A DNA stretch of 64,000 nt. Source: Miscanthus floridulus (taxonomy: Eukaryota > Streptophyta > Magnoliopsida > Poales > Poaceae). Location of the stretch: the NCBI RefSeq assembly GCF_019320115.1, contig NC_089584.1, positions 77,505,260 to 77,569,259 of the forward strand, written 5' to 3'. A program made the translations under genes and the position numbers. This document shows, in pieces, positions 21,201-64,000 of the stretch. Position 1 is the first letter of the stretch. Each line of letters starts with the position of its first letter. The notes beneath the pieces are model-generated. The model saw only the letters and a list, made by a program, of their open reading frames with translations. It did not search any database and was not told where the DNA came from.

Positions 21201-21204
21201 TTTG

Positions 21205-32047: not shown

Positions 32048-33688
32048 TGTCGACACGGAATTTCATCCCATGCCGAGGGCACATGAGCAAGCCAGATGGG
32101 TCTGCTTGATGGAGCTAGAGATCCACCTAGCTTCAGCGCAGGGATGGTCGATCCTGTGCACTCCTCCCGAGATGTGCCAGTCAATTTGACCCTGTAATTG
32201 ATAAGGAGAGAGTTTATTAGTAATTTAAGGTAGAACATGCTGGTGTTACCAGATAGTTCCGAATGTGCGGCTCTAAGAGCCGATATGAAAGGAGATTGAC
32301 TAAATAGTCGATTCTAGCATATTCATAAGAATAAATCAGTTAAAGCTCATGGGGTTGTGTAAGAAGAATCGATTATTATTCAGGATGAATATCATTATTT
32401 AGACAAATAGTGGTCAATGGCAATAAGATGTCAATAGTAATTAATTCATGCTAAGCCAATGACTACGAGTAACCGAACCTCTTTTTATGTAAAAGAAACA
32501 ACTCATCATCATTTAACCATTTAATAAAGATAAATCTAATGAACATATTAGATCTCATCTATCGCTATGACCAGTGGGGCATGAGGTAGAATCATGTAGG
32601 CCATAGAAACAACAATAGACTCGATGACCCTAACTTATTACTAATATTAGTGGGGCATAAGGTAGAATGATGTAGGCCATAATACAATAATAAGATCATG
32701 GGGCTAACACATCTTTCAACTTTTCCCTACTTCAGCGATCTCATAATGTGAACTGTTCATGAAAGCGCTCGATATCGGCTAAAATAGCCGATTCAGGCAT
32801 AGCGCACAGTTAAGGTCATACCCTCTCAAGAATAGATCTACCAAGTAACGATCCCCACTCCACGATGCTAACAGTGGGGTGTGAGGCAGAATCACACAGG
32901 CCGTGATAACGGACCGTGGAATAGTTTTTGCTAGCCAATAAATCTACTCAAGATTAGACATGCCTTAACCGCACGCTATGCACGATCAAGATTGATATAA
33001 AATGGCCGATAAAACATAACTCATCGTTTAGAGTGCAGATTAGATTAGTTTAGATTAACAAACGATGGGTTAAATAAGATATAAGGCCGATCTAGATCAA
33101 TCGCAATCAGGCGAAGTGATATTGCTATAATTAAATAAACAATGAAAGCAATAAGCAATATCGATAACTTAATGAATCTATCTGAAGGAACGCCACCCTT
33201 AGATAGAGCCGATAACTTGACCTTATTCTAGTTCGAGCAGTGGAGGTCGACCAGATCGATGCAGCCATACTTGCTGAAGAACTCACCAAGATCTACTCTA
33301 CTCTACTCCTACTCCTAAGGGGTGGCCAGAGCCGAAAAAAGTAAATAACTTATTTTTGATTGATTGTGTGTCCTTTTTACAATAGTTGAGCTTTGATATT
33401 TATACCCGAGACCTACGCATGACTCCTGTCTAAGCATGACTCATCACAATCTTTGACCCTAGAGAAAACATTCCTAATTTAAGATAACTTGGACTCTAAT
33501 ATTTCCCTTTTTGTATAGTCCAACATGTCTTGTCCCAACGTCGATCGTAGCCTTTGTCGTTATCTGCTGGTGCTATCTAAAGAAAGCTGATTCTAGTTTT
33601 GCATCCTGCACATGATTGATTCCTTGATGACATAATCTTGGGAGCTTTTAAGTCCCTGCGACTCTTCTTCCAAATTTTGGTGTAAACA
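32048..33688 (-). repeat. 5' LTR of the nested Tat-like element
   Basis: This right-hand LTR (1641 bp) on the minus strand starts TGTTTACACCAAAATTTGG at 33688 and ends CCGTGTCGACA at 32048. Differences to the left copy are mostly C/T and G/A changes. The primer site just left of it is degenerate (minus strand near 32020-32045: aacgcctggtgggacc). Confidence 0.88.
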
Positions 33689-36600: not shown

Positions 36601-37859
36601 AGTAAAATGCACCAAGATCTGAAAACACGCTTCTGGTGGACAAAAATAAAGAAAGAAATTGCAGCATTTGTTGCTAGATGCAATAATTGCTGTTGGGTCA
36701 AGGCCATCCATTTGAAGTGAGCTGGACAGCCACTATCTATCCCAAGTTGGAAATGGGATGACATCAATATGGATTTTATAGTTGGGCTTCTAACCACTAA
36801 AAAGGGTCATGATTCCATATGGGTAATTGTTGACTGCTTGACTAAATCTACACATTTCGTCCCTATTAAGGAAAGATATAAACCCCATCAGTATGCAGAG
36901 TTGTACATTGTCCAAATCATACGATTGCATGGTGTGCCTAAAAGCATTATATCAGATCAAGGATCGTAGTTTGTTAATCATTTTTGGGAACATCTACATA
37001 AGTAGTTAGGTACCCAATTGATTCGTAGCTCTACTTACCATCCTTAGACAGCTAGTCAGACTTAGCAGGTGAATCAGATTCTGGAGGATATGTTGAGAGC
37101 TTGTGTGATTTCTTCTATGGGTTCATGGGAGAAATGGCTACCTTTGGCCAAATTCTCCTACAACAATAGCTATCAAGAAAGCATCAAGATGGCTCATTTT
37201 GAAGCTTTGTATAGTCGAAAGTGTAGGACTCCTGAATTGGATTGAGCCTGGTGAAAGAAGGTATTATGGGATTGACTTTGTCAAAGAAGCTAAAGAACAA
37301 GTTTGAATTATTCAACAACATATTGAAGCTGCTCAATCGAGATAGAAGAGTAATGCAGATAAAAGGAGAAGTCCCATTGCATTTGAAGTTGGGGATTTTG
37401 TATATCTGAAGGTGTCTCCCATGAAGAAAGTGCAAAGGTTTGGTGTGAAGCAAAAGCTTGCACCTAGGTATGTAGGCCCATACAAGATCAATAGACAAAG
37501 GGGACCAATAGCCTACAAACTCTAGCTACCTCTGGAAATGAGAACTATATTCAATGTTTTCTATGTCTCCCAACTCAAGAAATGTCTTCGTGTGCCTGAA
37601 GAAGCTATTGAACCCGCTAGTGTCAAGATCCAGTCAGATTTAACCTGTTAAGAAAGACCTATTCGAGTGCTAGAGACAATGGAAAGAGTGACCCATAGGA
37701 AAGTCGTTAAATTCTACAAGGTGGTATGGAATAACCATAGTGAGCAAGACGCTATGTGGGAGCGAGAGGATTATCTTCGTGAGGTCTATCCGGTTTTCTA
37801 CAAGAGATGGTTAGTCATGCAAATCTTGGGATGAAATTTCTTTAAGGGGGGGGAAGGGC

Positions 37860-40800
37860 TATAACACCCTATGTGTTAAGCATGCATTTGGCATTGGCAT
37901 TGCATGAGTACAAGCATCATTGATCATTCATGAGCATGAGCATCTCAAATTTATCACATGTGTTGTTACTAAATGCTTTACATATGCTAGGATTTACATG
38001 TGACCAATGTATAAAATATTTGTGGGACCTTAGGAGTACCTTAAATATGTTTAGAATGTCACATGGAACAACTTTGGTATTCATGACTTGGACCCATTTA
38101 GCCTCTAAGTCATGGTTATAGTGTAGGCTTTCATTTTGAAGTTGTATGATTGACCTAAGTTGAACTATACTCTAGAGACTTTGCATGGCAGTGCACCCTT
38201 TAGCAAAGTTGTAGTACTTGACTAGAGTAACAACTTTTATTTTTGGGTCAAGAGCTAATTCAGCACACATGGTCAAGTAGGGCTCACAAGAATTAATAGA
38301 ATACTATTTTCAACTTAGAAAAATTTGCTAAGTCATGAACTGAGTTTCAGTTTCGATGTACCCTACTTTGAAGCTTTGCAATTTGAAAACTATAGTGAAT
38401 TAGATGTTACTCCCTAAAGCAAAGTTGTAGTTTACATGTAGCTCTACAACTTTTAGTAATGGAGTTTTTGTTAACTTGCCACGGATTAGAAGATAGAGGT
38501 GGATGGACTTGCGTTGTCAGTCACTGATTTTGGGCCTGATGTTCGCGGACGTCGTGCCATCAGTGGCCGACTGGTGGTAGGCTAGGCGCGCCGCGTGGTG
38601 GCCATACGCTGGTGCCAGACTGGCTGGTCAGGCCAGCGCGGAGGGTTAAGGCACACGCCTCTGCTGCTCGCTCCATTTCGCTCTCGCACCCCACTCTCTC
38701 GCCCACTCCAGAGCAAAGCAGAGCACCACATCGCCTCGCCATCGCTGTCGCTCCACCATGCTACTCGCCGCCGTCGTAGCTCCACCGCTCGATTCCTCAC
38801 GCCAACAGCTCTGCCACCTTCACCTGTACCTTCCCAAACCACTACTACCTCACGTCATGCCTTGGTAAGGCCTCATTTCATCTCACCGCCACCGCGCCAT
38901 CACCGGAGCACGACCACACTTTTAGATTGTTGTGGCCAGTTTACACAGAAGCACCTCCGCTCTCTCTCTCCCTCGTCTGGTCTTTGCTATAGGTCCTAGC
39001 ATCTTAACCCATCGTCCATTTTGATGCTACCAACGGAGACCTCGCCGTCGACGAGCTATCGCCGGTCAAACGCCATCCTCTGTTCTATTTCGCTGACAGG
39101 TGGGTCCCATTGACCGTGGGCCCTAGCTGTCAGCCTGTGTATATTTTGATTTTCTGATTTATTTTCTAGATTTGAATGTATGTTTCAAAAATGCATATCT
39201 CAAGCTAGGAGTGTCCAATTTTGGTGAACCAAATTTTGTTGGATTCATCGTGAAGCGTAGTATTTGACAAAAAATATGTAATGCGCTGTTTATGGTAATT
39301 TTCTAGGAGAATTAAATGGAGCTAAATAAGTGCTTTTAAATTGTTTGAAATCTTGTAAAATACATAACTTGAGCTTGGGAAGTGATAAAATTATGATTCT
39401 AATTTTTCTGGTCTTGTGTTGATATGCTCTAGCTAGGAAAAATACTAAACTTGCATTAGACTTGATTGCAGTAAGGTCTTCCTATTTATCTTTTAATAAA
39501 TGGTGTTTTTTGAGGAAATTCACAAGGATAAAAATAAGTAACATATTGCCTTGCAAATTTTTTGTACAGTGTTAATGGGTTTTATGGAAGCTAGGAAAAA
39601 TATGAAATCTATTGGTTGACACTTTTAATAGGCTAAACTATTTTTGCTAAAATAAACCTAAGCAACTTGTCATTTTTGTATAGAGGGCTATACTTATCCA
39701 ATTGGCATGAAATTTGCACAGTAGATTTTTGGGGTCATATGTATGCTGCTGTAATTTTCTCTGAATTTGTGGAGCACTAGAAATATTTATCTCATAAATC
39801 ACCTTATTATGTAAAGAAATTAATAAAGGTATCTAAACACATTAGTTTGGCAAAAACATAATGTTTTCTGTAGTCCTTGTGATGCATGTGATCTACTGAT
39901 AATGGTAGTTGTGCTTGAAGTTGATTGGTTATAAGCAGCTACTTAATTATTGCTTTATAATTCCGCTAGATGGCTGCAGGAGTAGTTTCTGTTGTATTGC
40001 CAAATTCATGATGATAATTACATTTCCTGTGAAACTTGTTGTTAACAAAGTTGTAGATAACTTACTGATCTTACTTGTATCGAATTGTTATGGTAATAGA
40101 CTAAGTGGTTTGGGAGTTATAGCTGTTAGAAGTTTATTGTTAGAATTTGCTTATCTACTAGATTGATCTGGATGATTGTATTGTTTAACCTAGATATCTA
40201 TTAAATCATCTTGTGATGACTTAATAAAAGTTGTAGGCAATTTTATACGATTTCCAGAAAGTCCTAGATCACAGCAATTGGTTGAGTAAAACTCCATTGA
40301 TGATGTAAACTTGTAGCTGCTATGTTATGGTCTAGAAATGGACTTAGTGTGGATTTCTAAAATTTCTAGAGAAGAGATATGCACCTACGCAGTAAATACA
40401 AATTTAACTTGGTTATCATCTAAGTAACTTGATATAATCATCAGCATAGAATCATGCACATTCTCATGTCATATCATTCACAATTCTTCTTATGCATTCA
40501 TGATACTTACTTTATGCATATGCATGAAAAAGGTGCAGCGGAAGAAATCACATTGGTGGAACTCAAAGCCGATCCACAAGAGGAGAACCAGGAAGCTCAG
40601 CACCAAGATGCTCTAGGCGAAGGCAAGCCTAAAGTTGATCATCTCCTAGAGTGCCCTTATCACTAGCCGGCCATGTTTATGAAAGGCAAGCCCCGGAGCA
40701 ATCTAAGTCTCCCATATTTTATAAAATATTACTTGAGTCCTTTATGTTTGATGCATTAGGTTATAAGAGTTGATTAGAACCACTTGTTGCATATACTTTC

Positions 40801-42195
40801 CTTGTCCAAAAATATCTATCTTGAATCCTATGTAGGTCTAGAATCGACCTTTATGCTTAGCCATACTTAGACCGGTAGAAGTCAGGTGATTTCCTGTCAC
40901 CTATGAGCTATAGGTGGTGACTTGATCATGGTTGGCTATATTGTGCTATCATGGAACATAACCTAGTGATGTTGAACAATTGGAGACCGGGTGGAATCTT
41001 ATATGTTAGGTGTGGTGACTTATAGTGATTCCATCTGTGTCATTGAAGGATCGACCGTTGGAGGACCTCTTGTCATGTTGAACAGATGCCTCTCACATAG
41101 TTGGCCGGATAAGTAATTCTGACTAGAAAGCTGAGTAGCTCAACTCTGGCCGAGGACACGAGCAGTTAAAGTGCATACTCTGGAGGTAGTAAGGATGTGC
41201 GGAGAGCCAATGGCATGAGTCCAAGGGTGGGTTAGAGTCCCGAGCCTCCTAGCAGATTGGTAGTATCTTTGAGGGTGTGGCGCTGGTCTTACCCATGATT
41301 TGGACCTAAGTTGTACCAAAGGTGACCCGATGCGACCCTAACAGGGGGAGTATGGGTGTGTGTTAGGAATAATTCCCTAGTTGGGTAGGAATCAATTCAA
41401 ATCGCCATCTCTTCCGGATAGTGAGAACTTGACATGAGCCCCCTTCATCATTGTAATTGATGAAAGTAATTGTTGTGTGGATTATGGAAATGCTCAACTT
41501 GATATGGTTACTATTGTGATGATTTAGTGGTACCCAACATGTTTGTCATAGGATAGATGCTAATCTAGAATGGGACAAGAATAATAAAGTTGTTATTTCA
41601 AAGTTAAAAGATACTAGATAAACATTGACTTGTAGGCATAGGATGTCAACCAGCTCCACTTATAAGCCTTGAATGATCCTTGGTGTCTCTTATTTTTGGG
41701 TTGTGATGGGTAAGTCTAGCTGAGTTCCTTCTCGTACTCAGGGTTTATTTCCCTATTGTTGTAGATAACATGATGTACCACAGCTATTGTAAGCACTGCT
41801 TTGCTCCTGCAGTGGATGAGGAATAGGACCATAGGCATGGTCATTCTATATATCATCTCACCCTTATGCTTTTGTTGGAGATGACTATGAAAACTGGCTA
41901 TGTATCTAAACTACTGTTGATATCGTTCAGAACTATGTTGCTTCCGCTACTGTTAAACTGATGTTGTAATAACTATGTTGGAACTCCGATGTATGACAAA
42001 CTATTTGTGAACTTGTTGTAACATGTGGCTTGTATGTTGAATCATATATGATCTTGGCTTGTATGTTGGTTGATTTGAGATCCTTCATGATACTCGATGG
42101 ACTATTAGATTTATATGGGCTCAAGTGTGATGGTTTGACTGCCTCGGTGGTTGCTATTGTACTTGTGCTCTTATAAATTGGACAGTTCTATTACA
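37860..42195 (+). repeat. 3' LTR of element 1 (complete, 4.3 kb)
   Basis: Preceded by the polypurine tract AAGGGGGGGGAAGGGC (37844-37859). It begins TATAACACCC, as does the 5' copy, so the usual TG start was already TA in the parent element. It ends TTACA followed by the TTTAG duplication. It contains a GC-rich block (about 38500-39000), a splice-donor-like ttggtaag (38862-38869), and an acceptor gtgcag (40533-40538) followed by a short acidic ORF. Hairpin arms are at 38421-38430 and 38444-38453. Confidence 0.9.
40539..40666 (+). CDS. Second exon of a putative LTR-encoded spliced ORF (element 1)
   Basis: After the acceptor gtgcag, the frame reads EEITLVELKADPQEENQEA and ends ...LLECPYH before TAG 40664-40666. 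The same plan, a hydrophobic EI-L-E start, an acidic/Gln-rich middle and an ECP end, occurs at the equivalent LTR site of element 2 (53115-53266 and 63535-63663). The upstream donor at 38865 leaves phase 1, which joins in frame. The upstream exon in this copy has no clear ATG. Function unknown; splicing is inferred from sequence only. Confidence 0.35.
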
Positions 42196-43468: not shown

Positions 43469-45071
43469 TGTCGGTGTTTCGAGTTGCCACCAACAAGTAA
43501 ATTTCTAATATTGCGTGTTTGGCTCAGATGGTGTGCTATGAGGACATGAGGTTTATACTAGTTCAGGCAGAATGTCCCTACGTCTAGTTAGTTGCTGCTG
43601 CTCGTGTTACTAGCACTAAAAGTTCATAGTAGGGGTTACAAATGGTCGAGCGAGGGATAGGTCCCAAGTCTCTAGTGAGAGGAACGAAGGGGTGCCAAGA
43701 GCTTGGTCACCTCTAGGTTGTGTGCTTGTGCATTCTAAATGGTTTGGCGTTCGAGTCCGAATCATTGTGATGTGTTTCGATGAGATCGATTTGAGTCGAG
43801 AGTTGAGTCCCATGCATGGGACACCCTACTTTCCCTTTTATACACCAAGGGAAAGCATAGGTTATAGTCAAGGGAAAAGGGGAGAACAAGAAGGAGAAGA
43901 AGTCCTCTAGGATTGTCGGGCTCTTCTTTTCCTTCATGCGGGTCCCGCTGACCCTGTAGACATCAATAGGGATAGCTCCACATCGTGGCCCTATCCATCA
44001 ATGACGCCATGTGTAGGCATCATCTCCTAGTTGTGGCACTCCACTCCATCCTGACGGACGTCATGGTGAACTGATGTGCCTGTTAGTGCCTATACGAGGG
44101 TTAGGCAGAACAACACCGTTAGGCCCGATGTTGTTCATGATGTGAAACCCTAGGTATAGCCTATCATAGCCATGGGTTATATCAAGGCATGCTGGTCACC
44201 TCCTTGGTGTCACATTTTGACCTAGGCCCATTCGCTTGGACCTAGAGTGGTTGGCGGTGGTATGGTCTCTATCGGGTGAGATAGATCCCCTGGCCTTAAT
44301 GCTAGGCAAGGCGGAGTCCTCCCCCAAAGGCCGGGTGAGGTAGAGTGTAGACTCAATGGTCAAGCAAAGTGGAGCTCATGGCCTTGGGGTTAGGTGAGGT
44401 GGAGTCCTCCCCCAAGGGTTAGGTGGAGTCCTCCCCCAAGGGTTAGGTGAGGTGGAGCATAGACCCAAGGGTTGGGCAAGGTGGAGCCCATGACCTTGGG
44501 GTCGGGCGAGGTGGAGTCCTCCCCTAGAGGCTGAGCGAGGCAGAGCATACACCCAAGGTTTAGGAGAGGTAGAGCGTAGACCCAAGGGTTGGGCAAGGTG
44601 GAGCCCATGGCCTCAGGGTTGGGCGAGGTGGAGTCCTCCCCTAGAGGCTAGGCGAGGCGGAGCGCAGACCCAAGGGTTGTGTGAGGCAGAGCGTAGCCCA
44701 AGGATTGGGCAAGGCAGAGCCCATGGCCTTTGGGGTATAGAGAGGCAGAGCCCTCCCCTAGAGGCTAGGTGAGGCAGAGTGCAGACCCAAGGGTCGGGCG
44801 AGGTAGAGCATAGACCCAAGGGTCGGGTGAGGCAGAGCCCATGGCCTCGAGGTTGGGCGAGGTGGAGTCCTCCCCTAGAGGCTAGGCGAGGTGGAACCAG
44901 CCCTTAGAGGTCAGGCGAGGCAGAGCCCATAGCCTTAGAGGTTGGGCGAGGTGGAGCTTGTGTACCTAGGGGTCAGTTAGAGCTGTAGTTGCGCTCTTGA
45001 CTACTTGGATATATCGATGTTGATGGTTATTAGCTCAGCCTCTTTGGGGACCCTAGTATTGTTCCCCAACA
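43469..45071 (-). repeat. 3' LTR of the second Tat-like element
   Basis: Plus-strand ends are TGTCGGTGTTTCGAG and ...GTTCCCCAACA, i.e. TG...CA in both directions. It contains the minisatellite at 44225-44990. The bases left of it are gtgac (43464-43468); the matching duplication is not in the window. Confidence 0.7.
44225..44990. repeat. Minisatellite of GC-rich units inside the LTR
   Basis: About 25 imperfect units of 28-33 bases vary around 'ggttgggcgaggtggag' followed by 'cccatggcc', 'tcctcccctagag' or 'cagacccaag'. The alternation of these variants gives a higher-order pattern. The minus-strand open frames here (44376-44819) are artefacts of the repeat. Confidence 0.85.
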
Positions 45072-48369: not shown

Positions 48370-50340
48370 CCTTCCATTTGTTAAGACCATAGGGCCCAAG
48401 GTGTAGGAGAGAAACTCTAATCACGTTGGTAAGCAAGAGTGCTATAGCCGCTGGGGTGTAGGTTTCTTAGTCTGACCAGCCTTGCTCAGTCATTCATTTC
48501 CGCAGAGCAACCGCATGTTCGGTCTCCATGTGAGTCTAACTTTTCTCAAGCCCCTACACATAGTAGGGGTCTGATTGATCGTTGGCTCATCTTTGTGATC
48601 ATCGCCCCATCCACGGTTTTCACAACTAGAGGGGTTGAGCTAATGTCACTTGCATCAATGGGTCAAGTGACACGCTCGGTGAGCTCGCTATTAGGCATGT
48701 TCGAGTGGAATTTGGGTTCACCATTCATGATGGGGTCAGCATAGCCCTCATGTGGTATTCCACTGCTCCTAAACTCACCTCCTACCAGATGCTCGTGTCG
48801 CTCTGAAGAGCGACTTAGGTGGTCTACTAACCTCTCCTTGATGGAGATTCTATGGGCTCGGCTCGAGGTTAGGATCAAACGAGTAGGTCATGCAAAGGCC
48901 GTGGGGGCTCATCTACATTTTCTCCCCTGGCTCTATTCTACGCAAGGCGGTTTTAGGCCCTTCATGGGCTAGCATTTGAACCCTGGTCCGGTGGATTCCC
49001 AAGTTTGGGTCAGGCGGCTCGAGCCTCTGAGCTCATGGGGGTTGGCCAGATTTCATGCATCACCCTATCCTCAGTTTCTACAACTAGAGGGGCTGAGCTA
49101 ATGACACTTGCCTTGATGGCTCAAGTGTCATGCTCGGTGAGCTCGCTAACGGGTATGTCCGAGTGGAATCTGGGTCCGTCATTCGCTGATGGGGTCGGCA
49201 TAGCCCTCATGTGGCATTCCACTGCTCCTTAACCCGCCTCCCGGTAGATACCCAAGCCATTCGATTGGCTTGGGTGGCCCACTAGCCTCTCCTAGATGGA
49301 GATTCTATGGGCTTGGCTCGAGGTTAGGATTGAACAAGAAAGGTCAAGATGTCCCTGTCTGCTTTTGAGTGGGGTCAGGCAAGGGTCATTGGGGCTCATC
49401 TCTGTTTTCCCCTGACTCTATTTGACACGAGGCGGCCTTGAGCCCTTCATGGGCCAACCTTCGAACCTCAGTCGGTTGCCGCTCAAGTTGAGTGAGACGA
49501 CTACCGCTTCATGACACGACGCGAAGCATTGTGATGTAATAATTGCATATGCAATGCTTGGATGTATGAGATGAATGTATGAATGAATGAATGTATGAAT
49601 GCATGCATGAGAATGGATGAATGAATGCTCATGTACTAGAAAAGTAAAGTGGGGGTTGGTAAAGTGACCTCGATGGCTCGAGTGATGGGTTCGGGGAGCT
49701 TTTACTAGATATGTCCATGTGGGGTCTAGGTCCGTCATTCATGACGGAGCTAGTGTAATCTACATGGGGCATCCCACTGCCCCTACCCATCTCTTGGCCA
49801 TGACCTGAGCCCTTCGACCGGCTCAGGCGGCCTGTCGGCCTCTCCTTGATGGAGATTTTGCCGGTGGGTCCCTCCAAATCCTTCTAGGGAAGGCAGAGGC
49901 TAAAGCTTAGGGTGTGGGGACAAAAACTCTGATCACACTAGTGAGTAAAAATGCCATAGCCGCTGGGGCATAGGTTTCTAGCGATCTGACCAGTTTTACT
50001 TAGAGTTTGTTTCTACACACCTTGCCTCTAGGTTTTAGCATGAGAAAGGGGTCAGGCATCAAGAATGTCTACCGAATAGACACTCTTGCGAGCCTCCCGA
50101 GCGAGACCCGACCCCTTGCCGTTGCTAGGGTCGGGGGCTCGATAGCAAAATTAATGCGTGTAAAGTAAGGGTGACGCATCTCTCGGCAGCAGCCCTAATT
50201 GTTTGATTGATTTGGGTGGCCCGCTGGCATAAGACTTACCTTGATGGCATGAATGACGTGTTCAGGGAGCTCTTACCATATATGTTTGCGTGGAATCTGG
50301 GCCCGTTGTCCGTGATGGGGTTGGCATAACCCATGTGGGG
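48370..50340. repeat. Four-copy diverged tandem array in the Tat-like element
   Basis: A unit of roughly 460-570 bases recurs. Anchors are 'gctcggtgagctcgct...gagtggaatctgggtc...catgtggcattccactgc' at about 48670, 49130, 49685 and 50250. The fourth unit is cut by element 2 at 50341. A second shared block, 'gctatagccgctggggtgtagg', appears near 48450 and 49955. No long ORF; reading frames through it are not conserved. Confidence 0.75.
49561..49628. repeat. ATGA-type microsatellite
   Basis: A run of gaatgaatgaatgtatgaat-like tetranucleotide repeats about 68 bases long, with interruptions. Confidence 0.8.
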
Positions 50341-53300
50341 TGTAACACCTCAAGTGTTAGCCTTGCATAACTTGACTTGCATAACATGAGCATGATCATC
50401 AAGCATTCATAAACAAGCATTTACAATTGAAACATTGGATTGAAACATCTACAACGTTTGCTTGTTATTGCATGTTTCTTAAACATATGCAACTTTTCTC
50501 GTTATTTCATGTCTCCATGTGTCTATGCATATGATCATGAGTGGACACATGTACTTAGTGGATGTGAGTCACACAAACATGTAGCAACACCTAGGGTAGC
50601 AAATAGGACTTTGTTCATGGTCACCTTTCATGAACCAACACTTAAGCTTTCATGTGATTAAACTACATAGCACTATGAGTGACTAATACATGAAATGATT
50701 GAATGACCTTGCAAATTGCTTAAACATGTTTAGAGTATCTTTATGAACAACTTTGATATTCATGGTTAGGGGTAATTAGGTCATTAAGCCATGATTTGAA
50801 GTATATCATCATTTAAAAGTGACATGATTGACCAAATTTGAACTAGGTGTTAGAGACCTTGCATGGAGGAGATCACTAAAGCAAAGTTGTAGTATTTGAC
50901 ACAAGGAACAACTTTTATTTTTGGGTCATTGACTGATTTAGCTCCTAACATGCTTGAATTGAGATCACAAAAATCAGCAAAATCATCATCTCATGACTTA
51001 TGAAATTTTGCTAAGTCCTGGTTCACTGACAGCCTGACAAACCCATCTTGGTGATGATATTACTCGTTATTGGTTGAGAATTAGAGCATGATCTTTGAAC
51101 AAGAATTGTAGAGGGAACTTAGGGCTACAAATTTTGTTTTGGGATCATTCACTAGTTTGCTTTGTATCGTGAGATATTTCAAACGAAAAACTCATCGTCA
51201 GGCTCGGCTTGCTTAACTGAATGAACTGAATGGAGAGCTTCAGTGGCTGAACGGTTTAGACCTTGGCCACCATGTGGATGCGAGGTTGGCCGTGCGTCAT
51301 CGGCGCCCTGCCCAATGTGGTAGAGCCTGGCCAGAGAGCTCGTTTAAGTCGCCTGCGCTCGCCCGCTCCATCTCGCGCTCCATTTTCCTTTCCCAGCTCC
51401 TCCTTCGCTGGCCAAAGCACCACCGCAGCCGCCGAGCACCTCCTCGCCTCCACCATCGCCATAGCCACGCCAAGCCTCGCTAAGCCGCCCATTCATCACC
51501 ACAGCGGCACCACCATCACCCCAGCAGCTCACCACCTCCACCAGTGCCCGCTGTCGGTGCTTGGTAAGCCACAGCAATGTGCACGAGCTTGCTGGAGCTC
51601 TGCCGCTAGCCCTGTCACCGTGGCCACGTCGCCACCGACCACCCCAAGCCATGATAGGGCGCTAGCTAGGTCTGCCGTAGCTCGGTGATGCTTGGCATAG
51701 CATTCGATCGAGTTGCCGTAGCCTCCACCGGCGCCTCGCCGTCGTCCAGCGCCACCGCTCCGCCATGAGCGCCACCGCCGTTGCTAGCACCGACGAGCAG
51801 TCCCACCAAGTAGATGGTTGTGTGCGCAAAGTCGAGTAGAACATCTAGTGAAGATGTCACCGTCGGCGAACTCACCACCGTTGAGTTCTGGCCGCGCCAG
51901 TAGAGTAGCGCCGCCAGCCCTGTTTTCCTCTCGATGACATGTGGGGTCCCCTGACTGACGGGTCCCACTGGTCAGCGACTCTGTAGTTGAAAGCTAGGTC
52001 ATTTGATTCCAGATTTTGATTTGTTTTGTGATTTTTATATCTTTAGTTTGGTAGCTTCAAAAATTGTGAAATAAAAATTGTTAGTGTTCCTTAGGAAGAG
52101 TAGTATTTAGAAAAAATATGTTCTTAACATTTACAGTCGAAATTTTGAGAGATTTAAATAGAGATTTGAAATGTGTTTTTGAATGCATGCAAACTTGTTT
52201 ATTTTATATCTAGAGTTACTGTGCTCTGAAAATTATGAAATTTTTGTGGTACGCTGGTCTTAGCATATATGAGCTCTGGTAAAAATTTGAGGATCAGTGC
52301 ATGTGTAGATTTATAGTTATAGATTTTTCTTTTATAAATAGTGAATCCTTGTATGAATTTCTATAAATTATTTGTGAATCCTTTATTCTTGAAATTTGTT
52401 GGAGGTAATCCTAGTACCATAAGGGTGCTAAGAAAAATAGGAAATCTATTGCTTGACACTTTTCACTAGGGTTTTCTATTTATGCTATTTTAAGCCTTTA
52501 TGCTTTGTCTTTTTGTATAGGGTGTTTTACTGAATAAAACAGCATGAAACTTTTACAGTAGTCCTTTGATAGCATTGGTAAGGCACTGTAAATTTTTAAG
52601 AATTTATGATGCACATTTGATATATATTTATTATTTAACCTATGTATCTAAATAAAATAATACAGGCATATAAAGAAATAGTTTGGGCTTCACCATTATA
52701 TTTTCTTGGATGTATTTGGTATGCTTAAACTGTTGATAGACTTTGTGTTGTCAAACTTTGACTGATTACATGAAGTAGAAGTATTGTTACTTTGTATTGC
52801 AAATTGAATAGTTTCCAGACAGATTCTGGAGTTTGATAAGTTGCATGATAATGCTGATGTGTACTGTAAAAATGGTTAACAACAAAGTTGTAGAGAATTT
52901 GATAAGCTTTCCAGAAAGTCTAGGATCACTGTATTTGGATTAGTAGAACTCCAGTTATGAGTGAAACAAATAGATGTTGTTTTGTGATATAGTAGATGCA
53001 TTGGTGGAAGTAGTAATTAAATAATCGAGAAGAGATATGCACCTACTCAATAAACATGATGTACTTGTTAACATATATGCATTCATAATACTTATGCCAT
53101 ATGCATGCATCTAGGTTCGGAGGAAGAGATAATGTTGCTGGAATTCGAAGAAGCAGAGGAAGGGGACCAGCAGGAGAATCCTCAAGTTGCAGCTCCCGAA
53201 TGCGCGGAGCAGAATCCTGAAGAGCTTTTGGAGTGTCCTGACCACCGCTCTACTTCCTTTCTGTGAGGCAAGCCTCAAGCATTCTAAGTCTCCTAGTATT

Positions 53301-54980
53301 TTACAAATGTTTACTTGAGTATTTATGATTGATGCATTAGGTTATAGAGTTGAATGGAACCACTTGGTGCATGTACATTCTTGTCCAGATATTACACCTT
53401 TAACCGATATAGGTCAAGGATCGATATATTGCTTAGCCTTGCTTAGACTGGTAGAAGTCGGGTGATGTCCTGTCACCCTGCGAGATATAGGTGGATACCG
53501 AGCAACGGTTGGCTATATTTGCTATCGTGGAAATAGAACCATGGGGTGAAAGAAAATCGAGACCCGGGGCGGGATGACGATAGAGAAGCAACAAGACATG
53601 GAGGTCTTGGGTGTGGATCTATCCCCGTATATGTAGATTAAGGACCGTACCATTATTGGCACTTCTGATAAGATTGAACGCACTGCCTCTCACTTAGCTG
53701 GCTGAATAACTCGTTCTGACCGCGAAGCCGAGTAATTCAACTCAGGCTAGGACCTGTTCTGTTGTGCGCTCCTTCCGAGGAATGATCAGACTGAGCCCAA
53801 GGGCAGGCTAGGCCTAAATGTCCTGGCATCTGGTGTTCTAGATTGTGCGGCACGGTACGGACCCATGAAATGTGTACCTGAGTTGTACCAAAGGTTGACC
53901 TAAGGCTATCGTGGCTGGTAGACCTGGGTTTGTGTTAGGAATAAATTCCTAGCTGGTTGAAATTGATTCGAATCGCCGTCTCTCTCCCGGATAGTGAGAA
54001 ACTTGGCTAGTCCCAACATCATAGTAACTATGTTATGGAACATGATGGTTCGGATGAATATGGAATTACAGTACCTGCTATGTTTACTATTGTATGCTTC
54101 TCAATTAATATACCACATGTTTGGCACAGGATAGTTGCTAATCTAGAAATGGATAGTTATAATTAACTTGATAAAGAATTGTAACTATACAATGAGTCAA
54201 TTGCTTTTATGCAAAATGTTGTTGAGTTACGTCCACTTATACAGCCTTGCATAATCCTTGGAGTCATTTTATTTCTGGTTCATGACGGGTAAGTCTAGCT
54301 AAGTACCTTCTCGTACTCAGGGTTTTATTTCCCATTATCTAATAGTTATATAATAGGTATTTAAAATATAAAGTGTGCCAATGATCACTTTCCTTATGCC
54401 CAAATTAAGGACTGTTAGGTGGCTATTTAAGTACTAACATGGGGGTTTTTACTTCGTCGTCCATACGGCATGCTATTGTATGGATACCATTCACTTGAGT
54501 GGTAATGTATGGATCAAATGCCTCTACACCAAGGTAAGCTGATGAGTGTATGACCGCAAGAGGTGAGCATGCGGTCGGGAAGAGTTAGCTTTGGTACGGC
54601 TATGTATGCATTCTTGCATGTGTATATGGTACGTATTTAATTGTGGGTTTAAATTATTGTCGGGTAGATTGATATGGAAGTATATGTATGGGTATACATA
54701 TATGGAAGTATTTACAATTACATTCCGCATATTTCATTATGGGTTTAGGGCTGAAATGAAATTCCTATGCAGGTACACTAACAACGAAACTTGTAGCTCG
54801 ACTAGTTACCGCTATTTATGAGGGAACATATATATGCCACCGTGTCCACCATTAGAAACAAATTTTTCCTAAGTTTGTGAGGACGTATGGAATGAGCATG
54901 TATCATGATAATTACCATTCACATAACTACATTGTTCCTCCTCTTATAAAATTCTTACTTGGTTAAGTAACTCTTATCCA
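50341..54980 (+). repeat. 5' LTR of element 2
   Basis: It starts TGTAACACCTCAAGTGTTAG. The right end is uncertain: 'ctcttataaa' near 54942 matches the same motif 31 bases before the end of element 1's LTR, placing the end at about 54960-55000. I find no clean tRNA primer site; the best is a weak tggtac at 55002. It holds a GC-rich block (51260-51960), a ttggtaag donor (51561-51568), an acceptor ctag (53111-53114) and a short acidic ORF. Confidence 0.8.
51272..53266 (+). CDS. Putative spliced ORF inside the LTR of element 2 (147 residues)
   Basis: Candidate exons are 51272-51563 and 53115-53266. The ATG lies in gccaccATGt, an excellent context. Exon 1 encodes a Pro/Ala/His-rich segment ending HHLHQCPLSVLG. 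The donor g|gtaag leaves phase 1, and the acceptor ctag joins in phase to SEEEIMLLEFEEAEEGDQQ ... LLECPDH and a TGA at 53264. Both ORF and donor recur in the 3' LTR (61705-61996, 63535-63663; the latter has one extra A) and partly in element 1. If transcription starts downstream near 51370, as the tttaag box at 51343 might suggest, the ATG would be lost and exon 1 would be leader only. Function unknown; expression unproven. Confidence 0.35.
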
Positions 54981-55022
54981 TTATGGCATTGTCTCACCAA
55001 GTGGTACATGTTAATGGTGCAG

Positions 55023-55932
55023 ATGGCATGCACAAAGCAGACCGCTCGCAAGTCCACCGGAGGCAGAGCTCCCAGCCGTCAGCTTGCTCCATGTACCCAT
55101 CAACGTCACACGTTTCTTGGAGAGTTTGGGATGCCTACACTCTTATGGAGAGTGCTCAGCTATGTAGGCTATCCTGATGGAATGGAACCCCCGCTACTTT
55201 CTGGGCGAATGAGCAGTTGGGAGAAGGTCTCTTGGTTACTGTGGAGGCCATTGTTCATCCTCGAGGTGATGATTCTAAGTGGACAGGTTGGTGTTACGAG
55301 TCAACTGGCAGGGACTGCTGAAGAAGTAGCTGGCAGGGCATCCTTTGGGATCCTGAGGGATATCATGGATCATTTTTTGTCAGGAGTTGGCAGCTGCTTT
55401 GGTTGGAGTCTTTCTAAGGGGCAACCCCCCCACTGACTCATGGCAGCAGGCAAGAGAAAGATCTTTGGAGATTGGTGCAGTAGAAGGGCAGAACAGTGAT
55501 AGCCCTACCATGAGCGCCATGTTTGCAGTGATGAAGGTGTTAGATGGAGTAGAAGGTAGCCTCAGATGTGTGTCTGGTGCTCTTGGTCATGCCCGTGAGG
55601 ACCGACGTCAGCTTCAGAGGGAGCACGATGCTGAGATTGAGAGGCTCAATGTAGAGATGGTTCGGTTAACTCACTAGAGGAGTGCAGCCTGGTCCAGGGA
55701 AGATGTTCTGAGAGCTTGATAGTTTGAGCTGGAGCAGCAGCTGGCCAATGCGGAAGAATACAACGATAACCTACATGAGGAGGTTCATCTGCTGAATAAC
55801 CAGCTCCACCCTTATGTTCCACCTAGAGCCACAGAGATGGATCTAGAAGGGGACAAGGAAGAAGAAGAAGTGGAGCCTGAGGAAGGAGATGATCCTACGT
55901 CTGACCTCGATAGTGATCATGATGAGGATTAG
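55023..55932 (+). pseudogene. ORF0 of element 2: histone H3-tail-like N-terminus, coiled-coil-like middle, acidic end
   Basis: ATG 55023 opens MACTKQTARKSTGGRAPS, continuing RQLA. Over the first 21 residues after Met it equals plant/animal histone H3 except at positions 2 (R to C), 14 (K to R), 17 (R to S) and 18 (K to R). K4 with its neighbours and ARKS around K9 are kept. No histone fold follows; from about residue 23 the protein is homologous to ORF0 of element 1. A net frameshift in a run of C near 55188-55192 and later stops (for example in the 55210 region) break it. The downstream frame (55387 to TAG 55930-55932) encodes a charged helical part (REDRRQLQREHDAEIERLN) and a Glu/Asp-rich tail ending SDLDSDHDED. 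It lies upstream of gag as a separate ORF. Role unknown; chromatin-related function is inference. Confidence 0.7.
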
Positions 55933-56298: not shown

Positions 56299-59200
56299 AT
56301 GACGCGCACCCGTGCTAGAGCTGGTGGCAGCCAGGATGGCAACCATGATGACTTGCCACCCCCACCGCCACCATCCGCTCAGGAGTTCTTTACCTAGTTC
56401 CTAGGGAGCCAGAGGACAATGGAGGAAGCGTTGCGCCTCATCGCGCAAAACACCGCTCGGGGCCACCCACATCAACCAGGGGCCGAGCCAAATTAGCACA
56501 GTACATTCAAGGAGTTTCTGGATACGAAGCCTCCAATCTTCAAGGTGGCTAAGGAACCACTGTAGGCTGATGAGTAGCTAAATACCATTGAGCAGAAATT
56601 TCATCTGCTGAGGGTCACAGAGTATCTGAAAGCTGAGTATGCTTCTCATCAGCTACAAGGACCAGCAGGGATCTGGTGGACACATTTCCTGTCGTCTTTG
56701 CCTGCTAATGCATGAGTGACCTGGGAATAGTTCAAGCTGGCTTTTAGGGGATATCATATTCCCCCTGGGCCTGATGCGCATGAAAGCTACCGAATTTATG
56801 AGGCTCACTCAAGGAACAAAGACTCTCACAGAATATATGCACGCATTCAACAACCTTTCTAGATATGCTCTAGGTTTTGTGGATACTGAGGAGAAAAAGA
56901 TAGAGAGTTTCAAGCGAGGGTCTGGGTACCAAACTAATGAAGACCATGGCCAATTCTAGGTGTGCCACATACAATAGTTTATTAGTGATGCCTTGACCCA
57001 AGAAAACCACAACAACATGCATGCAGTTGCTAAGGGTCGCAAGAGGGCATATGAGGCCGGTGCCTCCGGATCTTTCTAGTCAAAAGTGCCTATCATAGCT
57101 AGGCCATAATTCCGTCCACCTGCACCCAAGTTTAGGCCTCCAATACCTAAAGCTCAGAATAACAGGCCCCAGAAAACCATTCCATAAGGTGTTCACTATT
57201 GCCTTGCCAAAAGGAAATGGCAGTCAGGACAGCTCCACAGGATTCAGAAATAATCAACCATGTTTCAACTGCAACCAACTGGGTCATTGGTCCAAGGAAT
57301 GCCCCCACCCTAAGAAGAATGGCAACCAGAATCAGAACAATCAGAGGCAGGCGAATGCCAGGGCACGTCAGGGACACGTGCATTATACCGCTGTTGAAGA
57401 AGTGCCCGCCGGAGAAGTTGTCACGGCTAGTATGTTTCTCGTCAACAAGCATCCCGTTGTTGTTTTATTTGATTCGGGAGCTTCTCATTCATTTATGAGT
57501 CAAGCATTTGCATCTAGACATGATCAAGAAATAATTGAAGTAAGTAAAGGGGGTTATAACATAAGTTCAGCAGGGGGTACTATTACTACCAAAAAGATAG
57601 TCAAAAATGTACTCATCTCTATACAAGGGAGGGAGTACACAACGGATTTGATAATATTGCCCGGGTTATCGATAAGTGTAATCTTAGGCATGAATTGGAT
57701 GAAGGATCATGGTGTTCTTATTGACACTAGCACCCTATACTATTATGTTGAGAGGAACCCACGGGAGGGAATGCTTTTCTAGTACCACTCTCCCCGCAAT
57801 TTCAAACTCCAACATTTAGCCTTGTGCTATCCAAACCACCACACTTTGTGATATTCCTAGTGGTTTGTGAGTTTCTAGATGTATTTCCTAGAGGAATTAC
57901 CAGGTCTACCACCGGATAGGGACGTGGAATTTAAGATCGAGTTAGTGCATGGTACGTCACCCATATCAAGAAGGCCCTATAGAATGCCACCCAATGAGTT
58001 AGCGGAACTTAAGGTTCAATTGCAAGATCTATTGGACAAGGGTCTTATCCAACCTAGCTCATCTCCGTGGGGATGTCCAGCCTTGTTTAGTGAAAAAGAA
58101 GGACAAGTCACTGAGAATGTGTGTAGATTATAGACCACTCAATGCTGTGACCATCAAGAACAAATATCCATTGCCCCACATTGACATCTTGTTCGATCAG
58201 CTAGCGAAGGCAAAGGTATTCTCCAAAATTGACTTGAGATCAGGCTACCATCAGATAAAGATCAGACCAGAGGATATACCTAAAACTGCTTTCTCTACTA
58301 GGTATGGCTTATACGAGTATTTGGTTATGTCTTTTCGGACTAACAAATGCTCCAGCCTACTTCATGTACCTGATGAACTCAGTATTCATGCCCGAACTTG
58401 CACAAGTTCATGGTCAGTGTTTATCGATGATATATTGATTTATTCAGAAAATGAGACAGATCATGAAGAACATCTGAGGATTGTTTTATCCAGACTGAGG
58501 AAGCATAAACTTTATGCAAAGTTTAGCAAATGTGAATTTTGGTTGAGCAAAGTACCTTTCTTAGGTCACATTTTATCAAGAGATGGAATCTCTATAGACC
58601 CATCAAAAGTACAAGAGGTCATGGATTGGAAAGCCCCAACTTCGGTTCATGAAGTTCGGAGTTTTCTAGGGTTAGCAGGATACTATCGTCGTTTCATTCA
58701 GATTTCTCAAAGATAGCTAAGCCTATGACCAGACTACTTCAGAAAGATGAGAAGTACAAATGGACACCAGAATGTGAAGCAGCTTTTCACACCCTCAGAA
58801 CTTTGTTGACTACAGCACCTATGCTAGCACAACCAGACATTGAAAAGCCTTTTGATGTATTTTGTGATGCATCAGGAATAGGTTTGGGATGTGTGCTTAT
58901 GCAAGAAGGAAGAGTTATTGCATATGCTTCTCGGCAATTGAGAAAACATGAAGTCAACTACCCTACACATGATTTAGAACTTGCAGCCAGTTGTTCATGC
59001 ATTAAAGATATGGAGACATTACTTGTTGGGCAATGTATGTCATATATATACTGACCACAAAAGTCTCAAGTATATCTTTACCCAAGCCAGAACTGAACAT
59101 GAGACAACGAAGATGGTTGGAATTGATTAAGGACTACAATTTAGAAGTGCATTACCATCCGGGTAAAGCAAATGTAGTAGCCGATGCACTTAGTCGAAAG

Positions 59201-60728
59201 TCCCATTGCAACACTGTGGAAGCATTGTTGGAAGATGGATTCAACTTGTTACATCCTGCTGTACTACACAATATCACGATCAGTTGTTCACTTGAGAGCA
59301 AAATCATAGAGCTACTAGCAGACCGATGTAGGAATAAGTCACATCAAGAGAAAAATGCAAGAGCAAGAAACCAAACATTTTAGATTGGACGAAAGAGGTG
59401 TATTATGGTTTGAGGACCGACTGTGGTACCAAAAGACCGTGAGCTAAGGAATCAAATTTTAGATGAAGCTCACTCATCCAAATTGTCTATCCATCTGGGT
59501 AGTAGTAAGATGTATCAAGATTTGAAAACCCATTTTTGGTGGACTAAGATGAAGAAAGAGATCGCTAGCCTATGTTGCTAGGTGTGATAACTGCAGTAGA
59601 GTAAAAGCTGTCCATATGAAATCTGCCGGACTACTTAGCCATTGCCTATTCCAGGATGGAAATGGGAGGAAATCAGCATGGACTTTATCACAGGCCTTCT
59701 AATGATGCCACAAGGTCACGATTCAATATGGGTTATTGTTGATCGTCTCACCAAGTCAGCACACTTTATACCCGTGAACACACTGAGTATATAGTTGGAA
59801 AATACGCTGAGATATATGTTTCCCAGATCATGAGACTGCATGGAGTACCTAGGACTATAATCTCAGATCGAGGACCATAGTTCATAGCTCGTTTCTGGGA
59901 GCACTTACACCAGGCTTTGGGAACCAAGCTAATCAGAAGTTTGGCATACCATCCGCAAACTTCAGGACAGACTAGAGCGAGTGAACCAAATCCTAGAAGA
60001 TTTACTTAGAGCTTGTGTTATATCTTCAAAGGGTTCATGGGAGAAATGGTTACCTTTAGCTGAATTCTCCTATAACAACAGTTATCAAGCGAGTATCAAG
60101 ATGGCTCCATTTGAAGCCTTGTATGGCAGAAAATGTAGAACTCCATTGAATTGGATTGAGCCCGGTGAAAGGAGATACTTTGGTATTGACTTTGTCAATG
60201 AAGCCGAAGAGCAAGTACGTATCATCCAACAACATATGAAGGCAGCTCAATCAAGACAAAAGAGTTATGCCGACAGAAGAAGAAGACCACTGACTTTTGA
60301 AGTGGGTGACTATGTATACTTGAGAGTATCACCCATGAAAGGTGTGAAAAGATTTGGGATGAAAAAGAAGCTTTCACCAAGATATGTAGGGCCATACAAA
60401 ATTTTGGAACAAAAAGGAAATGTTGCGTATAAGTTACAACTTCCACCTAGAAATGAGTGCAATATTTGATGTGTTCCATGTTTCTCAGTTGAAGAAATGT
60501 CTTCGAGTACCTGAAGAAGCTATTGCACCCACCAACGTGCAGCTTCAATCGGATTTGACCTATGAAGAAAAGCCAATTCGAGTATTAGAGGAGATGGAGA
60601 GAGTGACATGGAGTAAGATTATTAAGTTCTATAAGGTGGTGTGGAACAATCATAGTGAACAAGATGCTACGTGGGAAAGAGAAGATTATCTACGAGAAGT
60701 TTATCCTGCCTTTTTCCAAGAATGGTAG
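56299..60728 (+). pseudogene. Gag-pol of element 2 with C-terminal chromodomain
   Basis: Gag starts ATG 56299 (MTRTRARAGGSQDG). The CX2CX4HX4C knuckle CFNCNQLGHWSKEC is at 57261-57302, and protease DSGASHS at 57471. Reverse transcriptase covers about 57900-58650 with [14 protein letters not shown] and the catalytic FIDD near 58420. RNase H follows ([15 protein letters not shown], about 58858), then the integrase HHCC region (59470-59600) and core (from 59677, MDFITGLL...). A long intact stretch at 59981-60469 includes the GPY/F motif RYVGPYKIL. The chromodomain (60560-60725: RVLEEMERVTWSKIIKFYKV, then ATWERED) ends at TAG 60726-60728. Stops or frameshifts near 56392, 56960, 57780, 58085, 58345, 58715, 59000 and 59580 break it. 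The integrase chromodomain of chromoviruses steers insertion to chromatin. Confidence 0.88.
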
Positions 60729-60771: not shown

Positions 60772-63700
60772 TGTAACACCTCGGGTGTTAGCCTTGCATA
60801 ACTTGACTTGCATAACATGAGCATGATCATCAAGCATTCATAAACAAGCATTTACCATTGAAACATTGGATTGAAACATCTGCAACGTTGTGCTTGTTAT
60901 CGCATGTTTCTTAAACATATGCAACTTTTCTCGTTATTTCATGTCTCCATGTGTCTATGCATATGATCATGAGTGGACACAGGTACTTGGTGGATGTGAG
61001 TCACTACAAACATATAGCAACACCTAGGTTAGCAAATAGGACTTTGTCATGATCACATTTCATGAACCAGCACTTAAGCTTTCATGTGATTACACTAGCT
61101 AGCCCTATGAGTGACTACTACATGAAATGATTGAATGACCTTGCAAATTGCTTAAACATGTATAGAGTATCATTATGAACAACTTTGATATTCATGGTTA
61201 GGGGTAATTAGGTCATTAAGCCATGCTTTGATGTGTATCATCATTTAAATGTGACATGTTTGACCAAGTTTGAACTAGGTGTTAGAACCTTGCATGGAGG
61301 AGATCACTAAAGCAAAGTTGTAGTATTTGACATAAGGAACAACTTTTATTTTTGGGTCATTGACTGATTTAGCTCCCTAACATGCTTGAATTGAGATCAC
61401 AAAAATCAGCAAAATCAACATTTCAACACTTAAGAAATTTTCTAAGTCTTTGTTCGACTGACAGCCTGACAAACCCAACTTGGTGATGACATTACTCGTT
61501 ATTGGTTGAGAATTAGAGCATGATCTTTGAACAAGAATTGTAGAGGACACTTAGGGCTACAAATTTTGTTTTGGGATCATTCACTGGTTTGCTTTGCATC
61601 GAGAGATAATTCGAACAAAAAACTCATCGTCGGGCTCGGCTTTGCTTAACTGAATGAACTAAATGGAGAGCTTCAGTGGCCTACCGGTTCAGACCTTAGC
61701 CACCATGTGGACACGAGGTTGGCCGCACGTCGTCGGCGCCCTGCCCAGCGCGGCAGAGCCTGGCCAGAGAGCGCGTTTAAGTCACCTGCGCTCGCCCGCC
61801 CCATCCCGCGCTCCATTTTCCTTTCCCAGCTCCTCCTTCGCTGGCCAAAGCACCACCGTAGTTGCCGAGCACCTCCTCACCTCCACTGTCGCCATAGCCA
61901 TGCCAAGCCTCGCTGAGCCACCCATTCGTCACCATAGCGGCACCACCATCACCCTAGCAGCTCATCGCCTCCACCAGTGCCCGCTGCCGGTGCTTGGTAA
62001 GCCACAGCAATGCGCAGAGCTCACCGGAGCTCCACCGCTAGCCCGTCACCGTGGCCACATCGCCACCGACCACCCAAGCCACGATAGGGGCTAGCTAGGT
62101 CGCCAGTAGCTCGGTGATGCTCGGCGTAGCATTCGATCGAGTTGCCATAGCCTCCACCGGCGCCTCGCCGTCGTCCAGCGCCACCGCTCCGCCATGAGCG
62201 CCGCGCCATTGCTAGCACCGACGAGCAGTCCCACCAAGTAGATGGTTGTGTGCGCAAAGTCGAGTAGAACATCTGGTGAAGATGTCACCGCGCGAACTCA
62301 CCGCCGTTGAGTTCTGGCCGCACCAGTAGAGTAGCGCCGCGGCCTTTTGTCTCTCGATGACATGTGGGGTCCCCTGACGGGTCCCACCGGTCAGCGACTT
62401 GTAGTTGAAAGCTAGTTCATTTGATTCTAGATTTTGATTTTTTGTGATTTTTATATCTTCAGTTTGGTAGCTTCAAAAATTGTGAAATAAATTTGTTAGT
62501 GTTCCTTAGGAAGTGTAGTATTTAGGAAAAATATGTTCTTAACAATTTACAGTAGAAATTTTGGGAGATTTAAATAGAGATTTGAAATGTGTTTTTGAAT
62601 GCATGCAAACTTGTTTATTTTATATCTAGAGTTACTGTGCTCCAAAAATTATGAAATTTTTGTGGTAAGCTAGTCTTAGCATATATGAGCTCTGGTAAAA
62701 ATTTGAGGATCAGTGCATGTGTAGATTTATAGTTATAGATTTTTCTTTTATAAATAGCTGAATCCTTGTATGAATTTTCTATAAATTATTTATGAATCCT
62801 TAATTCCTGAAATTTGTTGGGGGTAATCCTAGTACCATAAGGATGCTAAGAAAAATAGGAAATCTGTTGCTTGACACTTTTCACTAGGGTTTTCTATTTA
62901 TGCTATTTTAAGCCTTTATGCTTTGTCTTTTTTGTATAGGGTGTTTTACTTAATAAATAGCATGAAACTTTTACAGTAGTCCTTTGATAGCATTAGTAAG
63001 GCACTGTAAATTTTTCAAGAATTTATGATGCACATTTGATATATATTTATTATTTAACCTATGTATCTAAATAAAATAATAAAGGCATATAAAGAAATAG
63101 TTTGGGCTTCACCATTATATTTTCTTGGATGTATTTGGTATGCTTAAACTGTTGATAGACTTTGTGTTGTCAAACTTTGACTGATTACATGAAGTAGAAG
63201 TATTGTTACTTTGTATTGCAAATTGAATAGTTTTCGGACAGATTCTGGAGTTTGATGAGTTGCATGATAGGAATGATGTTTGCTGTAAAAATGGTTAATA
63301 ACAAAGTTGTAGATAATTTGATAAGCTTTCTAGAAAGTCTAGGATCACTGCTATTTGGATTAGTAGAACTCCAGTTATGAGTGAAACAAGTAGCTGTTGT
63401 TTTGTGATATAGTCGATGCATTGTGGAAGTAGTTAATTAAATAATCGAGAAGAGATATGCACCTACTCAATAAACATGATGCACTTGTTAACATATATGC
63501 ATTCGTAATACTTATGCCATATTCATGCATCTAGGATCAGAGGAAAGAAATAACGTTGCTGGAATTTGAAGAAGCAGAGGAAGGGGACCAGCAGGAGAAT
63601 CCTCAAGCCGCAGCTCCCGAAGGCGTGGAGCAGAATCCTGAAGAGCTTCCAGAGTGTCCCTAACCACCGCCCTACTTCCTTTCAACGAGGCAAGCCCCAG

Positions 63701-64000
63701 AGCATTATAAGTCTCCCAGTATTTTACAAATGTTTACTTAAGTACTTATGATTGATGCATTAGGTTATAAGAGTTGAATGGAACCACTTGATACATATAA
63801 ATTCCTTGTCCAGATATTACACCTTTAACCGGTATAGGTCCAGGATCGAATATATGCTTAGCCATGCTTAGATCGGTAGAAGTCGGGTGATGTCATATCA
63901 CCTACGAGATATAGGTGGGTACCAGAGCACGGTTGGCTATATTTGCTATCGTGGAACAGAACCATGGGGTAAAAGAAAATTGAGGCCAGGCGGGACTGAC
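60772..64000 (+). repeat. 3' LTR of element 2, first 3.2 kb
   Basis: Collinear with 50341 to about 53570. It contains the GC-rich block (61660-62400), the ttggtaag donor (GT at 61997-61998) and the short acidic exon after ctag (from 63535). The open frame 61663-62094 is longer here because the stop found at the equivalent of 51255 is absent. Confidence 0.9.

Follow-up and report, generated by a model that had tools for sequence, protein, structure and literature searches.

The 64,000-nucleotide stretch of Miscanthus floridulus DNA analysed here (the window) raises the question of why a protein encoded by a retrotransposon should begin like histone H3, and what this beginning could do for the element. 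Histone mimicry occurs in viruses, bacteria and some host proteins. The protein concerned is ORF0, an orphan reading frame in grass elements whose LTRs are very long; through this tail it may gain a concrete and testable function. In the available parts of its description for Retrosat2, RIRE3 and RIRE8, ORF0 is confined to grasses, fast evolving and of unknown origin and function, and has been modelled as metabolic enzymes (PMC3485330).

The H3-like tail and its host element

The frame that opens at position 55023 of the plus strand reads MACTKQTARKSTGGRAPSRQLA, that is, Met followed by H3 residues 1–21 (55023..55088). Translation bore out what an earlier note on this DNA had claimed, with 18 of 22 positions identical to H3 and with exactly the four substitutions R2C, K14R, R17S and K18R. 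When the window was searched with H3 by tblastn, this segment was the single match at E <= 0.01 (E 1.15e-6), and the best six-frame match to H3 amounted to 18/22 in the real window versus a maximum of 10/22 in 100 base-shuffled windows. In a PDB sequence search with the tail, the best 60 of 135 sequences were histone H3, H3 variants (including Cse4) and H3-like peptides, the lowest E value being 1.6e-6. The similarity to H3 ends by about residue 21–26 and no histone fold follows the tail; the ORF0 protein is not a core histone H3, and the domain that comes next is predicted to be dsRBD-like.

ORF0 spans 55023 to about 55932 in the window, upstream of gag-pol, and it is broken there: the family frame is lost after ~56 codons, and the tail-initiated frame is closed by a stop codon at 55434..55436 (+). 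Behind the tail, on the same strand, lie a variable linker (55089..55112), the dsRBD-like domain (55113..55425), whose frame is broken here, with homologous pieces in two frames and a fold predicted on natural homologs, and a remnant of the coiled coil and acidic end (55484..55932, limits approximate). This remnant was recognised in a three-frame translation and by a match to the homolog P0061, stands in a different frame from the tail and has stops inside. The cysteine at codon 2 looks like decay in part of the subfamily, because 30 of 40 copies of the window's subfamily (class B) keep CGC (Arg) at this codon; TGC stands in 9, the window copy among them, and CAC in 1.

The element is framed by a direct repeat of ~3.24 kb, made up of a 5' LTR at 50341..53578 (start set by the TGTAACACC motif, end approximate) and a 3' LTR at 60772..64000, which runs to the window end, both on the plus strand and 92.95% identical over 3264 columns. 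At the rate used for LTR dating, about 1.3e-8 substitutions per site and year, this divergence corresponds very roughly to 2–3 million years. The same strand carries the gag zinc knuckle and protease (57099..57782; Pfam zf-CCHC and RVP_2), a piece of reverse transcriptase (58117..58716; RVT_1, E 5.5e-24), the C-terminal part of integrase (60101..60469; SH3_Tf2-1, E 1.2e-16) and a degenerate, chromodomain-like integrase end (60390..60728; Chromo, E 0.004, 17.5 bits for a cut-off of 25.1). The host element belongs to a long-LTR, chromovirus-like retrotransposon family.

In common with Retrosat2, RIRE3 and RIRE8, as the accessible text describes them, it has the extra ORF before gag-pol and LTRs longer than 3 kb (PMC3485330). 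According to that text, only RIRE8 and Retrosat2 have the terminal inverted repeat TGTCACACCC...GGGCGTGACA in identical form (PMC3485330). Neither this repeat nor near variants of it were found in the window element, whose LTRs start TGTAACACC, and for this reason the element is called a likely relative of Retrosat2/RIRE3/RIRE8 and not a member, on a comparison by description only.

In the chromodomain-like frame a TWE motif is visible, which is a Tekay-like feature in the part of the chromodomain literature at hand (PMC3350952). By eye, Trp is kept and the other residues of the aromatic cage seem to be missing; the same source describes an incomplete cage in group II chromodomains, Tekay among them (PMC3350952). 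The idea that the tail is bound by the chromodomain of the element itself was considered and ranked low, since this cage looks incomplete.

Occurrence of the tail across the family

Homologs from environmental sources were retrieved with the window ORF0 protein (81 homologs), with an ORF0 profile (2704 homologs, the best 120 listed) and with residues 1–140 of the homolog P0083 (3 proteins, the query itself included). The tail is present in 51 of the 149 retrieved homologs, counting those with 8 or more of 22 residues identical to H3 ahead of the FL..EF anchor; most of the others have a predicted start downstream of the tail, and P0133, P0141 and P0146 are of a tail-less sister type. By eye, two environmental homologs, P0080 and P0081, seem to have their tail DNA translated in a different frame, which points to frameshift decay.

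A genome search of the window's own assembly (2.68 Gb, 2420 contigs) with a tail-containing query gave 150 scored matches of 8868 candidates, nearly all reaching residue 1 or 2 and many with an open frame of more than 320 codons. As a check that does not select on the tail, P0061 was used as a domain-only query without it and the first 20 of 150 matches were read: the tail is found in 19 of these 20 top copies, the start being disrupted in one of them and the tail interrupted by stops in some, and the remaining copy has unrelated sequence upstream of the domain. It was thereby confirmed that ORF0 does carry an H3-like tail at a free N-terminus, and that this tail is conserved in homologs and genomic copies and family-wide, being no peculiarity of the window copy; the one-off capture that the earlier note had weighed is ruled out.

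The same note had also raised an assembly chimera with an H3 gene. To this, or to chance similarity, we give virtually no credence, as the genome matches that reach the first residues, the base shuffles and the database tests all speak against it and nothing at the window locus speaks for it; the environmental homolog P0022 (161 aa) may, for its part, be a chimeric contig. P0022 had been considered as a recombinant of a window-type tail and a sister-type domain, a reading that was rejected on 0 of 150 scored genome matches spanning the junction. When viral contigs and bacterial/archaeal genome contigs were scanned with alignment A1, no relative was confirmed among 22 and 13 pattern matches, respectively.

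Origin of the tail DNA

Eight intron-containing H3 loci are present in the genome, with a first coding exon that runs from Met to K23 and is followed by GT. At four of them (two near-identical pairs) the ATG stands directly after an AG that a T-rich stretch precedes, in the manner of an internal exon start. For the comparison with host H3 genes, 38 loci were examined, the 29 with the exact 24-residue tail being compared and 9 left out. Twenty window-type tails agreed with each of the eight intron-containing genes at a mean of 50.4–53.6 of 66 bases, and with the 21 other loci at 46.3–50.0 of 66, always lower; among 62 copies, 61 were nearer to an intron-containing H3 gene and one was a tie. Five codons show disjoint usage, of which T6, A7, G12 and A15 match the intron-containing H3 genes and R2 mostly the others. 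The changes that T6, A7, G12 and A15 would need from the other H3 type are transversions, not C-to-T decay.

The tail DNA likely derives from a host intron-containing H3 gene, and it looks captured because it is closest to coding exon 1 of these genes. Capture of exon 1 in one piece is compatible with these data but not proven, since the match to H3 is gradually lost over residues 21–26 and the exon ends after K23.

The tail-less sister and exchange of ORF0

A sister subfamily, class C, begins its ORF0 with MATPVGCENFL or a close variant in 29 of 30 loci, the readable ones, and has the tail in 0 of 29. In a comparison of modules with one locus for each of classes A, B and C, class B and the tail-less C showed 92.4% identity across the 1008 columns that precede the ATG, diverged at the tail and became alike once more farther downstream (76% identity across 464 columns). 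The ORF0 of class B was 88.9% identical to that of class A over 397 columns, and the class B leader gave no match to the class A leader, which comprised 72 bases only. The sharp similarity break lies at the acceptor-like CAG directly upstream of the ORF0 ATG (55020..55022, +), the apparent exchange point of ORF0 among related elements. Eight ORF0 starts were inspected (L004, L009, L078, L109, L117, L130, L131 and L132), seven being CAG|ATG and one, L132, TAG|ATG. The tail-bearing ORF0 seems to have been swapped onto the 5' part of another element at CAG|ATG, and template switching or splicing could lie behind the swap; splicing to this CAG is putative. A resemblance was also observed between this splice-acceptor-like CAG and the AG|ATG of the four intron-containing host H3 genes.

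On these unrooted class relationships the tail may have been either gained or lost, and the tail-less sister demonstrates that elements of this kind are able to multiply in its absence. The two subfamilies constitute a natural experiment, as tail-bearing and tail-less elements, ~92% identical upstream of ORF0, share one genome, and their methylation, expression and insertion sites are directly comparable.

Conservation of and selection on the tail

Residues were counted in 49 of the 51 tail-bearing homologs, P0010 and P0015 being left out for a one-residue deletion after residue 12 (K9 is present in both), and in 62 genomic copies (class A 18, B 40, D 3, E 1). Class A loci came from the domain-only query (first 20 of 150), class B loci from the tail-containing query, and classes D and E from the top of 123 genome matches. 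For classes A and B, 58 of 60 loci were scored; dropped were L120, which has no tail, and L121, whose tail was missed by the scoring pattern although K4 and K9 are visible there. By demanding K at position 9 this pattern could in principle introduce a bias; only L120, with its unrelated upstream sequence, failed it on that residue.

Leaving Met aside, K9 alone among the tail residues is invariant both in homologs (49/49) and in genomic copies (62/62), and it is the modifiable H3 lysine kept family-wide, across seven linker types. The claim that H3 residues such as K4 and K9 are kept thus stands for K9 and only partly for K4, which is found in 62/62 genomic copies and in 35/49 homologs (Arg in 13, Trp in 1). 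R8 is kept in 43/49 homologs (His 3, Cys 2, Trp 1) and the Ala after Met in 48/49, and Q5 is Leu in 23/49. The earlier note had also thought of acetylation as in H3, which is largely excluded at K14 (1/49 homologs, Arg in 43; 1/62 genomic copies), K18 (0/49, His in 35 and Arg in 11; 0/62) and K23 (0/62 genomic copies), where Arg, His or other residues stand almost everywhere.

H3 tails bind importins, and the tail could be a basic nuclear-import or DNA/chromatin-binding segment for which the reading of histone marks is irrelevant. The mostly Arg or His replacements of K14, K18 and K23, which largely keep the positive charge, and the predicted disorder of the tail before a folded domain would suit such a segment; we nevertheless regard it as rather unlikely, given that the uncharged T6, A7, S10, G13, P16, L20 and A21 are kept in 45–48 of 49 homologs (T6 46, A7 45, S10 46, G13 46, P16 47, L20 48), which exceeds what a basic import signal would call for, and that the linker behind the tail is free to change.

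The extent of this freedom was seen in six of the seven linker types, each represented by one analyst-chosen protein, with the P0128 type left out. Between pairs of representatives, 14–19 of 21 tail residues agree, compared with 1–5 of 8–9 in the linker and 23–39 of the first 50 in the domain. The tail is more conserved than the linker in 15/15 pairs and more than the domain in 12/15, the three exceptions all involving S5.

All dN/dS values are limited by few codons, saturated dS and decaying copies; within these limits, the tail value between classes A and D is 0.135 at a dS of 1.06 (bootstrap 0.05–0.33, 119 of 2000 resamples undefined) and that between B and D is 0.17, close to the domain (0.16 and 0.18, respectively). 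Between A and B, the tail at 0.42–0.45 (bootstrap 0.12–1.84) exceeds the linker (0.28) and the domain (0.25). Against the lone class E copy, the tail gives 0.30–0.39 and the domain 0.17–0.20, D–E being undefined. Tail and domain values are 0.92 and 0.37 within class A, whose copies were ranked by domain, and 0.27 and 0.32 within class B, where 31 of 40 copies, those with the domain in frame, were used for the domain. The case for constraint on the tail would rest on the deep class comparisons; the purifying selection raised in the earlier note is supported for A–D and B–D and not for A–B, within A or against class E.

The A–B and within-A values, together with the existence of a tail-less sister, would agree with a harmless relic of gene capture that provides merely a start codon and leader. 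This we consider very unlikely, as the amino acids persist between A and D even where dS is saturating, with an upper bootstrap value of 0.33, and K9 does not vary with linker type.

Possible function of the tail

Beyond the tail, ORF0 is predicted to consist of a dsRBD-like protein-interaction domain, then a long coiled coil and finally an acidic end; in the homolog P0083 the predicted helix covers 161–296 and the acidic end follows. The fold predicted on natural homologs is alpha-beta-beta-beta-alpha. The domain is termed dsRBD-like because ten natural ORF0 homologs gave no dsrm match in Pfam, only weak matches, all below cut-offs. In dsRBDs, helix 2 starts with an RNA-contacting KKxxK; this motif is absent at that place in the homologs, which by eye read TAEEAAERAA or similar. 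Foldseek returned nothing at E <= 0.001 for the ORF0 domain, the DRB7.2 chain of the DRB7.2:DRB4 complex (PDB 8igd) having an E of 0.023 and 19% identity, and a fold common to the two would show no function.

The reading that we favour is that the tail mimics methylated H3K9 and serves as an anti-silencing decoy. Roughly coding exon 1 of an intron-containing host H3 gene would have been captured long ago at the start of ORF0 and kept by selection. Removal of Met would expose a free H3-like site, A-R-T-K-x-T-A-R-K-S-T-G-G, whose K9 could be methylated like H3K9, the acetyl-acceptors K14, K18 and K23 being gone. The coiled coil would multimerise the tails into a multivalent H3K9 mimic, which could engage the proteins that write and read H3K9 marks, such as SUVH/KYP and CMT3-type proteins in plants, and would keep them off the element's own chromatin. 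A multivalent mimic is the best fit because of the Ala after Met, the invariant K9, the lost acetylation sites and the coiled coil. These features suggest that the element may imitate chromatin to handle the plant silencing machinery. That ORF0 attracts or titrates chromatin readers, as the earlier note proposed, is likewise putative.

We hold the decoy reading tentatively, at somewhat short of an even chance, for several observations weigh against it. The sister subfamily proliferated without the tail (29/29 loci read); the tail dN/dS values for A–B, within A and with class E do not support constraint; and the domain is the better conserved in the three pairs with S5. The codon AAG of K4 and K9 has no CpG and so decays more slowly than Arg codons, Q5 is often Leu, and the Arg or His at positions 14, 18 and 23 would also be in keeping with a segment that is simply basic.

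The invariance of K9 would equally serve a tether, in which the methylated tail, bound by heterochromatin readers, brings particles or integration complexes to heterochromatin and compensates for the incomplete cage of the chromodomain. The retained Trp, the seemingly missing cage residues and the parallel with group II chromodomains described above agree with it; the sister without a tail does not. With the nuclear-import segment, the tether is a main rival of the decoy, and we judge it distinctly unlikely. An extension of the decoy reading, in which the captured H3 exon would make ORF0 an antagonist on two fronts, with an acetylation-proof H3K9 mimic directed at the heterochromatin machinery and a dsRBD-like domain directed at DRB/Dicer partners, the whole ORF0 being exchanged between lineages at CAG|ATG, is likewise unlikely in our estimate.

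Relation to known systems

No report of an H3 tail on a retrotransposon protein, or of the capture of a histone H3 exon to form the N-terminus of a protein, was found in open-licence PMC full text. The accessible portions of five papers make no mention of such a tail on a retrotransposon protein (PMC3485330, PMC13317346, PMC12859917, PMC12786077, PMC7264820), and the words "histone" and "chromatin" have 0 occurrences in that of the first. Compared by description only, ORF0 here differs from the account in that paper in its H3-like tail, dsRBD-like fold and coiled coil (PMC3485330).

Known mimics of H3K9, such as the automethylation site of G9a, likewise carry an ARKS/T-type lysine in an H3-like context outside histones, and are short motifs in the text at hand (PMC10611923), whereas the tail of ORF0 has ~21 residues of apparent H3 DNA ancestry. 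Unlike those mimics, it stands at the free N-terminus of a mobile-element protein, and its methylation is putative. The VANC proteins of Arabidopsis VANDAL transposons are likewise transposon proteins proposed to counter epigenetic silencing; unlike ORF0, they belong to DNA transposons and bind DNA sequence-specifically, according to the parts of the reports available (PMC5735166, PMC10398659). A functional likeness between VANC and ORF0 is offered as a proposal only. We know of no H3 tail on VANC proteins.

Other repeats in the window

A second, degraded relative of the element is present in the window, with a sister-type ORF0 domain at 21196–21616, upstream of which no tail was found in the three plus-strand frames. 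Its body, at 22383–22817 and 33688–37887, is 70–72% identical to the element described here and is split by ~11 kb of DNA that looks like an insertion. Stretches within 40007–40813 are 68–88% identical to the end of the element's LTR and are probably another LTR remnant. Further along, a tandem array with a period of 117 bases occupies 44304–44888, its copies being 61–76% alike to the reference, and a local direct duplication joins 48600–48883 and 49058–49338, which are offset by about 455–458 bases and 82–87% identical.
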